Positions 8,183-29,244 of a stretch of 36,711 bases of DNA are shown piece by piece. A program made the translations under genes and the position numbers. The notes beneath the pieces are model-generated. The model ran no database searches, had not been told where the DNA came from, and saw only the letters and a list, made by a program, of their open reading frames with translations. The stretch is from a virus, in IMG/VR virus record IMGVR_UViG_3300015245_000028, positions 1 to 36,711 of that record, one strand, 5' to 3'. Within the stretch, counting starts at the first letter, position 1, and every line of letters starts with the position of its first letter.

Positions 8183-8207
8183 GTTTTTCGATCTTCGTTC
8201 GTGTGTA

Positions 8208-8244
8208 GGCCAGAGTTGCTTAAACCTCCTCTCTGGCCTTTTTT
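8208..8244 (+). terminator. Rho-independent terminator before the capsid promoter
   Basis: GGCCAGAG (8208-8215) pairs perfectly with CTCTGGCC (8231-8238), 15-base loop, then six T's (8239-8244). It closes the transcript that includes portal and scaffold. Confidence 0.85.
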
Positions 8245-8245
8245 C

Positions 8246-8275
8246 TTGTCATTTCATATTTCTTCTTATTATAAT
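8246..8275 (+). promoter_or_regulatory. Strong sigma70-like promoter for the capsid operon
   Basis: TTGTCA (8246-8251), 18-bp spacer, TATAAT (8270-8275, perfect consensus). It begins two bases after the T-run of the preceding terminator, so it restarts transcription. Predicted start near 8282, which is the first bases of the hairpin array described next. Confidence 0.75.
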
Positions 8276-8280
8276 GCCCA

Positions 8281-8387
8281 TAGCGTAATGTGACTTCGCT
8301 AATCACAGGCGTATAGAGTTTCGCCAACTCGTTCTTATTTTGGCGTATTAGGCCTCGCCAGCTCTGCACGTATGAGAGACTCGTGCA
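8281..8387 (+). repeat. Four-hairpin leader upstream of the major capsid gene
   Basis: Four consecutive short inverted repeats share one design: TAGCG/CGCTA (8281-8285, 8297-8301), GGCG/CGCC (8308-8311, 8322-8325), TGGCG/CGCCA (8341-8345, 8356-8360) and TGCACG/CGTGCA (8365-8370, 8382-8387). Each stem ends in CG, each loop is 10-11 bases, begins with TA and ends with T, giving CGTA-N(7-8)-TCG in all four. The stem sequences differ yet keep pairing. The predicted transcript begins at the first hairpin and the capsid ATG follows 48 bases after the last. It may stabilise the mRNA, bind a protein, or be a regulatory RNA; no known RNA family is recognised. Confidence 0.7.
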
Positions 8388-8435
8388 TCTCAAGGTCAAA
8401 TAATATCTATATGTTTGTGCTTATGGGAGTAGGGT

Positions 8436-9380
8436 ATGATTACAACCCCTAATACGCTTCCAGCTCCGGTTCAACAAACCATGGACGATGTGCTTCTTTC
8501 GGTAAGAACTCCAAATCTTATTATGAAATTAGCTGCTATATCCAAGCGTTTGCCAGACAAGGGTGGAAGAACGTTACGCATGGCGCGCTATGATAGATTG
8601 CCAACCGCTCCGGTTCCTTTGGGGCCCAGTGGTGCAACACCTCCAGCCACGCCATTAACTCGTGTTGATATAGATGCAACTATGTCTTTTTATGGGTTAT
8701 ATGTTGCAATTAACCAACAAGTAACATTGCAAAACCAAGATCCGGTACTTAACGAAACAGCTGAATTACTCGGTCTTTCATTACGTATGACTGAAGATCA
8801 AATTACACGTGATATGTTAGCGGCAACAGCCTCTATATATAACTGTACTGGTGGTGGCAATGGAGACCTTCCAACAGATTTATCACTTTCAGACATTGAT
8901 GATGTTACTTCGGCATTGTTAACTAACGATGCATGGATGATTCTCGATGCTATTGGTGGTGAAGATAAGTTTGGAACAGGTCCAACTCGTGATGCCTACT
9001 TAGCATTAGGACACACGAAATTATCCAAGGATCTTAATAATATCAATGGATTTATTTCAAAGTGGAACTATTCATCTGCGGATAGAGTATTGAGATCAGA
9101 ATGGGGTTCTGTAAACAACGTTCGTTTCATGCTTTCTTCTGTGGCATCAGTATCGCCTCTCGCTTCTGGTTTAGGCAACGATGTTTATAACGTTTTTGTT
9201 CAAGGTATGGAATCATTGGCGGTAGTTGAGCAAGATAATTTCTCTGCTCAATTTTTATACAGACCGCCAGTATTCTCAGATCCTTTATTCCAAAATGTTA
9301 CAATTGGATATGTTTTTGCAGAAGTCCCACGTATATTGAACGATCTTTGGATCACATCAATGCGTTGCACGCTAGCATAG
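8436..9380 (+). CDS. Major capsid protein, N4 gp56-like
   Basis: A 314-residue protein with the pattern of the N4 gp56 major-capsid family (HK97 fold): an N-terminal segment leading to LPDKGGRTLRMARYDRLPTA (about 40-59), then DIDATMSFYGLYVAINQQV (about 79-97), the DPVLNETAELLG helix and TRDMLAAT (about 129-136). The end has beta-strand-rich GYVFAEVPRILND. It would build the icosahedral shell around the scaffold. Preceded by GGGAG and by its own promoter and structured leader, consistent with the highest expression in the genome. Confidence 0.9.
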   Translation: MITTPNTLPAPVQQTMDDVLLSVRTPNLIMKLAAISKRLPDKGGRTLRMARYDRLPTAPVPLGPSGATPPATPLTRVDIDATMSFYGLYVAINQQVTLQNQDPVLNETAELLGLSLRMTEDQITRDMLAATASIYNCTGGGNGDLPTDLSLSDIDDVTSALLTNDAWMILDAIGGEDKFGTGPTRDAYLALGHTKLSKDLNNINGFISKWNYSSADRVLRSEWGSVNNVRFMLSSVASVSPLASGLGNDVYNVFVQGMESLAVVEQDNFSAQFLYRPPVFSDPLFQNVTIGYVFAEVPRILNDLWITSMRCTLA

Positions 9381-19147: not shown

Positions 19148-19234
19148 GTTGTATATCCATGATTGAAAATATGATATACCAAACCACAAAACAAAATATA
19201 ATTTTAACCATTTGTTGTCCCATCCCACACTTAT

Positions 19235-19387
19235 TTAAATTTCACCATTTTCTTTCTTAATACGCTCTTGAATTGCCCTATGCAACCAAAGATTGATACT
19301 AATACCCCTCTTTGCAGCCAATATCTTTATGATTTGATGTATTTCTGGGTTGATATCAAATGCTATCTGTTTACGCTTCTTTTCCAT
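19235..19387 (-). CDS. Ribbon-helix-helix DNA-binding protein
   Basis: A 50-residue protein on the strand opposite to its surroundings. AGGAG lies 4 bases before the ATG. The order is basic start MEKKRK, beta strand QIAFDI, helix PEIHQIIKILAAKRG, turn, helix SINLWLHRAIQERIKKE: the Arc/MetJ/CopG fold, whose dimers bind DNA with the strand. It lies beside a perfect inverted repeat (19405-19504) and a promoter candidate, so autoregulation and control of the fibre genes are likely. It could alternatively be an antitoxin-type protein, but no toxin partner is next to it. Confidence 0.75.
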   Translation of the reverse strand: MEKKRKQIAFDINPEIHQIIKILAAKRGISINLWLHRAIQERIKKENGEI

Positions 19388-19404
19388 TCTGCTCCTATTT
19401 GAAT

Positions 19405-19504
19405 CCTGTACCAACCATTTAGGAGCTTTTTTGAAAATTAATATTCAAGTAGTGCTACAATGATTATTAGTCGTCATCAAAACAGGAGTTATGGTTGGTA
19501 CAGG
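19405..19504. repeat. 14-bp perfect inverted repeat around a promoter candidate
   Basis: CCTGTACCAACCAT (19405-19418) and its exact reverse complement ATGGTTGGTACAGG (19491-19504) lie 72 bp apart. Read outward, each arm is identical and begins ATG GTT GGT ACA GG, with stop codons 5 (plus) or 7 (minus) codons on. The arms lie between the promoter region and the genes on each side: fibre genes to the right, the ribbon-helix-helix gene to the left. They suit paired operators; an invertible promoter segment is a less likely alternative, since no recombinase gene is visible. Confidence 0.8.
19431..19461 (+). promoter_or_regulatory. Promoter candidate for the fibre genes
   Basis: TTGAAA (19431-19436), 19-bp spacer, TACAAT (19456-19461), predicted start near 19468. 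The spacer is longer than ideal, so this is only moderately supported. It lies between the two arms of the inverted repeat. The 120 bases downstream hold no gene. Confidence 0.45.
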
Positions 19505-19583
19505 TTAGTTTTATCCCCTTCTAACAATCTAACATTCTAGCGGATATTGTTCAAGCCTATTGTGACATGACTTCTTATTTCTT

Positions 19584-19605
19584 TAACTGTGGTCAAATAC
19601 AGTTA
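19584..19605 (+). other. Hairpin just before the fibre ribosome site
   Basis: TAACTGT (19584-19590) pairs perfectly with ACAGTTA (19599-19605), 8-base loop, 9 bases before the AAGGAG of the fibre gene. No T-run, so not a terminator; it may modulate translation. The rest of 19148-19625 holds only the ribbon-helix-helix gene, inverted repeat and promoter candidate. Confidence 0.4.
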
Positions 19606-19625
19606 CCCCATCTAAGGAGATAGTT

Positions 19626-28851: not shown

Positions 28852-29244
28852 ATGAATATAAATAAATTAATAATGGCTGGTAGATTGGCTCGTGATCCTG
28901 AATTTAAGGAAGTAAGACCAAATCTATTTGCTTGTAAGATAACCATAGCAACTAATCATGAAACAAGATCAAAAGATGGACAGGTTAAGAAGGAAGTTTG
29001 CTTTATTGATTGTACTTTATGGAATCAACAAGCAAAGGACGCACATGAAAGGCTCAAGAAGGGATCTTTAGTGGTAGCTGAGGGTAGACTAGCCACCGAG
29101 AAATGGGTTGATCCTACAACCAAAATTGAGCGAACAAAGCAGATTCTTAAGTGTGAGATATTAATTATACCAGAACCTATACCATCAACCGCTACAACTA
29201 CCAATGATAGTTCTGATAGTTTTGATGAAGAGATGCCATTCTAA
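28852..29244 (+). CDS. ssb: Single-stranded DNA-binding protein
   Basis: A 130-residue OB-fold protein. MNINKLIMAGRLARDPEFKE, then FACKITIATNHE, VCFIDCTLWNQQAKD and GSLVVAEGRLATEKWVD follow the bacterial SSB family in order, with the usual aromatic residues. The C-terminus is acidic and ends DSFDEEMPF, the standard SSB tip that recruits replication and repair partners. Strong start: the stop of the upstream gene, then ATG. It overlaps the next start by one base (TAATG). Confidence 0.93.
   Translation: MNINKLIMAGRLARDPEFKEVRPNLFACKITIATNHETRSKDGQVKKEVCFIDCTLWNQQAKDAHERLKKGSLVVAEGRLATEKWVDPTTKIERTKQILKCEILIIPEPIPSTATTTNDSSDSFDEEMPF

Follow-up and report, generated by a model that had tools for sequence, protein, structure and literature searches.

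What purpose could be served by a row of small, matched stem-loops directly ahead of the major capsid protein gene of a tailed phage? The question is raised by IMG/VR record IMGVR_UViG_3300015245_000028, the whole of which (36,711 nucleotides, hereafter the window) was analysed. It comes from a tailed phage and encodes, in 36.7 kb, a terminase, a P22-like portal and a major capsid protein that is N4 gp56-like.

Anatomy of the capsid leader

The terminase, the portal and neighbouring head genes lie upstream of the capsid gene, and a terminator (8207-8239) and a promoter (8246-8275) stand between them and the capsid start at 8436 (Table 1). Both elements had been proposed in a first-pass annotation of the sequence, which called the promoter near-consensus, and both were found where expected; the terminator hairpin has an energy of -15.5 kcal/mol (z -3.4). 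The same annotation listed four hairpins downstream. All four are present between 8281 and 8386, each of the form CGTA-N-TCG, with the stems TAGCG/CGCTA (loop of 11 bases), GGCG/CGCC (10), TGGCG/CGCCA (10) and TGCACG/CGTGCA (11). With a stem of at least 4, the leader holds this motif four times; no further copy was found on either strand of the window, and none of 5000 dinucleotide shuffles of the leader contained two or more such hairpins.

The capsid mRNA leader is structured, as had been claimed, but it is not a series of plain hairpins, since a pairing between loop and 3' flank had been overlooked. In each unit, part of the loop can pair with the sequence that directly follows the stem on its 3' side, perfectly in three of the four and imperfectly in unit 3. 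The resulting order, S1a-L1-S2a-L2-S1b-L3-S2b, in which the two helices interleave, is the layout of an H-type pseudoknot. Three strict pseudoknot units are observed in 112 bases, against a mean of 0.027 in shuffled sequences, and none of 2000 shuffles reached three. Minimum-energy nested folding of the leader gives no signal (z -1.05), because pseudoknots lie outside its model.

Table 1. Features at the capsid gene of the window
Feature	Position	Strand	Description
Intrinsic terminator	8207..8246	+	AGGCCAGAG / CTCTGGCCT, then T run; closes the upstream transcription unit
Promoter	8246..8275	+	sigma-70-like, TTGTCA-18-TATAAT; -10 ends 5 bases ahead of unit 1
Pseudoknot unit 1	8281..8307	+	S1 TAGCG/CGCTA, S2 TGTGA/TCACA; first bases are the predicted transcript start
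Pseudoknot unit 2	8308..8330	+	S1 GGCG/CGCC, S2 GAGTT/AACTC
Pseudoknot unit 3	8341..8365	+	S1 TGGCG/CGCCA; S2 weak, AGGCCT vs AGCTCT, mismatch or bulge
Pseudoknot unit 4	8365..8392	+	S1 TGCACG/CGTGCA, S2 TGAGA/TCTCA
Spacer	8393..8424	+	A+U-rich, from array to ribosome-binding site
Shine-Dalgarno region	8425..8435	+	GGGAGTAGGGT
Major capsid protein gene	8436..9380	+	PHROG 1357 major head protein, N4 gp56-like

A small GTACGTTTGTAC hairpin lies directly ahead of the Shine-Dalgarno region in many relatives, and a decayed form of it, TATATGTTTGTGC, is seen in the window (8393-8435). Within the run of structural genes there is also a 480-base gap (19148-19625) with no listed forward reading frame, from which the capsid-leader motif is absent.

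Conservation of the two helices in related phages

A capsid-protein search of IMG/VR yielded 79 loci at first and, with alignment, at least 569 relatives, from which we retained the 80 best. Capsid relatives with about 42-93% identity carry the same kind of array in the same place but in other letters, with 2 to 8 units (five in L100, four in L054). At least two full units were detected in 64 of 100 distinct leaders, compared to 0.65% of shuffled leaders. The 36 leaders missed by the detector were, by reading, mainly shifted-bulge variants, cases where an intron near codon 12 misplaces the start, other array types or too-distant relatives; some relatives have other array types, or no array. 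Cultivated distant relatives (23-29% capsid identity; phages of Pseudoalteromonas, Stenotrophomonas, Bacillus and Pseudomonas) have no array, and short gaps or other genes precede their capsid gene.

To avoid circularity in testing S2, units were chosen by S1 alone. Among 152 distinct units from 61 leaders, the S2 score was 9.13 with a unit's own 3' flank and 4.82 ± 0.29 when flanks were swapped between units. Covariation was assessed on 56 distinct ungapped 24-mers (set A2). The two-helix structure is 88.8% paired in this set (S1 99.6%, S2 77.9%); both sides have changed in 124 cells, where shuffles give 41 ± 8, and a covariation score of 0.544 compares with 0.209 ± 0.016 after shuffling and no more than 0.133 after sliding. 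The comparison with related phages that the first-pass annotation had proposed thereby brought out both the paired stem changes and the kept CGTA/TCG edges. Since the folds are kept while most letters have changed, the folds themselves must matter.

On these data, S1 (NNCG-[U]A / UCGNN) and S2 are most simply read as interleaving within each unit to give a compact H-type pseudoknot. The unit consensus is GGCG-U-A-N-S2a-C-U-CGCC-A-S2b, with a length of about 24-28 bases, and S2 keeps the same diagonal with respect to S1b in 111 of 121 units, whereas the null is broad. Within the 24-mer set, the G4-C15 pair is invariant and A6-U14 is found in 55 of the 56 units. The CGTA/TCG edge, first taken as a loop motif, is kept, but it corresponds to a bulged U and to the A6-U14 pair, which extends S1; in CGAA variants the A-U pair is retained and the bulge is absent. 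C13 and A19 are common and lie opposite each other between S1 and S2.

The loops are short (mean lengths 3.6 for L1, 2.3 for L2 and 0.6 for L3). In most units L3 has 0-1 bases, too few for a classical coaxial pseudoknot geometry, which is unlikely. In a coarse rigid-helix model, clash-free arrangements with both helices formed were obtained, whereas none could be obtained for a classical pseudoknot whose L3 has one base; the model leaves the fixed register of S2 unexplained. We infer that S1 and S2 form simultaneously. The interleaving of the helices and the shortness of the loops would also suit mutually exclusive hairpins, in which S1 and S2 never coexist and each unit would switch between two hairpins in response to the ribosome, a protein or a ligand, and each stem can form alone (mean -5.1 kcal/mol for a lone S1, -3.1 kcal/mol for a lone S2). 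Such switching is improbable: S1 wins in 86 of 105 units, the coarse model fits both helices together sterically, some units keep an S2 of only 3 bp, too weak as a free hairpin, and four or more independent switches in tandem would be unparsimonious.

Inside S2, G-U is not favoured over A-C (11 versus 9), so that wobble pairs cannot serve as separate proof of selection on the RNA strand. A DNA-level reading, either as a cruciform or as a protein operator, was also considered; it would leave unexplained why interleaved covarying helices are locked to the predicted start, and the G-U versus A-C count does not separate the strands.

The transcript start had been predicted to fall on the first hairpin, and the relatives bear this out. 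We looked for a -10 box with at least 5 of 6 matches ending 3-9 bases before the first unit. It ends 4-8 bases (mode 6) before that unit in 39 of 58 leaders, compared to 6.4% at random positions, and the 5-base spacing in the window falls within this range. Transcription should therefore start at the very beginning of unit 1.

The link to the capsid gene was examined by a capsid-blind scan of 2.9 million viral contigs, using a DNA pattern of two adjacent units and no gene reference. It matched 48 stretches. Every genuine array among them precedes this capsid gene, except those of L141 and L182, which end at the edge of the stretch; L182 is the contig of L034, in which the array does lead into the capsid gene. 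The arrays of L145 and L165 lie ahead of exon 1 of an intron-split capsid gene, and the same spacing is seen in L169 and L176. The other stretches hold no array and are read as chance matches. Such arrays were thus found only at this capsid gene in the scan. So far as sequences can reveal it, comparison shows both helices to be under selection in a fixed register, in an array linked to the capsid gene and placed where the mRNA is predicted to begin.

Possible roles of the array

The explanation that we favour, at a probability of roughly 0.4, is that the array would act as a 5'-terminal protection of the capsid mRNA against RppH and RNase E. Both enzymes depend on an unpaired 5' end, so that structure there lends stability to an mRNA (PMC3997798). 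With a promoter of its own behind a terminator, the capsid mRNA would start directly with the tandem array, and a 5' end locked in structure would give no foothold to RppH or to 5'-end-dependent RNase E. Several redundant units would keep the end closed, while the A+U-rich spacer and the Shine-Dalgarno region would stay open, and the outcome would be a long-lived, heavily translated capsid mRNA. Pairing within a few bases of the 5' end, the mark of 5' stabilising structures, is found here at the predicted transcript start. We rejected a direct masking of the ribosome-binding site, since some 30 bases separate the end of the array, at 8392, from the Shine-Dalgarno region.

The nucleases of the host bear on this proposal. 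Capsid relatives were found in 8 of 234 Chlamydiota genomes (L082, L084, L115-L129; best E values 1e-157, 1e-88, 1e-86 and 1e-82), one of which, L124, carries the array. In the comparison groups, 240 Patescibacteria gave one strong match, on a 3-kb contig, and 249 Pseudomonadota gave weak matches only. The hosts may be environmental Chlamydiota, with binning artefacts possible. RNase E/G was found in all six candidate Chlamydiota host genomes and RNase J above the cut-off in none of the six, which we count in favour of 5'-end protection. It counts against this role that one ordinary 5' hairpin would suffice; protection alone therefore leaves unexplained the 3-8 units, the conserved S2, G4-C15, A6-U14 and C13...A19.

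The main rival to 5'-end protection, which we hold to be rather doubtful, is a protein-binding operator: the capsid protein or another phage protein would bind the repeated pseudoknots, spread over the A+U-rich spacer and repress capsid translation when in excess, as gp32 does. The succession of pseudoknot, A+U-rich spacer and ribosome-binding site is the layout of the T4 gene 32 leader (PMC3014915). Near-identical nucleotides at the S1/loop edge (CG-UA...U-CG, with an A after S1b) would suit one recognising protein, and tandem sites would suit cooperative binding. The A-U pair and the fold can, however, account for these edge nucleotides; arrays range from 2 to 8 units, and sequence turnover is fast.

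The array stands directly at the predicted transcript start, with structural genes running over about 17 kb of a single strand behind it, an arrangement that would also fit nascent-RNA antitermination as at HK022 put, with the array modifying RNA polymerase to read through the long late operon. There is, however, no excess of downstream terminator-like sites (10 found versus 12.5 in shuffles, both strands). HK022 put consists of two stem-loops of conserved sequence and differs in this from a variable pseudoknot array, and we regard antitermination as very unlikely.

Least probable of all would be an RNA decoy, by which a host RNase is titrated away or a type III antitoxin such as ToxI is imitated. 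The thought is prompted by ToxI itself, which is made of tandem repeats folding into H-type pseudoknots and of which a phage can evolve a pseudo-ToxI (PMC5086642). Sequence differences between the units of a single leader are the rule, in contrast to ToxI repeats, and the capsid gene is the only one with which the array is associated. ToxN was unmatched in the window and in the six candidate host genomes, in a search whose control was likewise unmatched.

Relation to known RNAs and variation among leaders

Rfam 15 gave no gathering-score match in the whole window or in ten relatives, and the sole match to the leader at E values up to 10 was a chance snoRNA over the terminator. No description of a capsid-leader pseudoknot array was found in the searched literature. 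Several known RNAs invite comparison. The gene 32 leader of T4, T2 and RB69 is also a phage leader in which an H-type pseudoknot (here, interleaved covarying helices) is followed by an A+U-rich spacer and a ribosome-binding site. It has a single classical coaxial pseudoknot, whereas the capsid leaders have 2-8 short-loop units from the predicted 5' end, and it precedes the gene for a ssDNA-binding protein rather than that for the major capsid protein; the SSB gene of our phage lies at 28852-29244. ToxI shares the tandem H-type pseudoknot repeats, which resemble the eight units of about 24 bases in L186. Its repeats are, however, 34-36 bases long, are processed by the toxin and have the toxin gene downstream, while the capsid units are divergent and about 24-28 bases long, and the capsid gene, not ToxN, follows every true array with enough sequence. 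The 5' stabilising stem-loops of papA and ompA are likewise structures at the 5' end, or close to it, of mRNAs in heavy use, with an expected block to RppH and RNase E, but each is one simple hairpin as opposed to an array with a second conserved, interleaved helix. Finally, xrRNAs are compact pseudoknotted viral RNAs, sometimes in tandem, and can block bacterial RNase J1 (PMC5760640). They differ in secondary structure and lie in the 3' UTR, while the present array is at the 5' end in phages whose candidate hosts have no RNase J above the cut-off.

We class the array as a new family among the structured leader RNAs of viruses; its putative function is most likely to protect or control the capsid message. 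In L186 most of the eight units are nearly identical, and arrays therefore appear to grow by unit duplication. More tentatively, and with some doubt, we propose a new class of viral cis-acting RNA, in which modular pseudoknots of the same fold and variable sequence would stand at the extreme 5' end of capsid mRNAs; unit duplication would let the array grow or shrink, unit number would set mRNA lifetime or capsid dose, and unrelated pseudoknot arrays of the same use would replace it in some relatives. Few phage leader pseudoknots are known, and a 2010 review considered T4 gene 32 to be perhaps the only viral pseudoknot used for translational autoregulation (PMC3014915); the conserved modular array described here occurs in a large family of uncultured phages. 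It stands on the capsid mRNA, which is probably in heavier use than any other message of the phage, and offers a testable model in which mRNA life or capsid dose would depend on 5' RNA architecture. A portable element with which to stabilise bacterial mRNAs may also come of it.

The leaders vary in other ways. Different repeated pseudoknot-like arrays occupy the same place in L091 and L092 (AGACC-CAAAAGCAAT-TTAGG-AATT-GGTCT-AG-CCTAA) and in L042 and L076 (GGGT-GTAAA-GTAAC-AA-ACCC-CG-GTTAC), as if one array type had been replaced by another. In L003, L005, L014 and L038, extra hairpins are lodged within loop L1 of single units, leaving S1 and S2 undisturbed. The capsid gene is itself split near codon 12 by a group-I-like intron in L020, L025, L037, L039, L051, L064, L071, L145 and L165, and some of these introns carry a homing-endonuclease-like reading frame.
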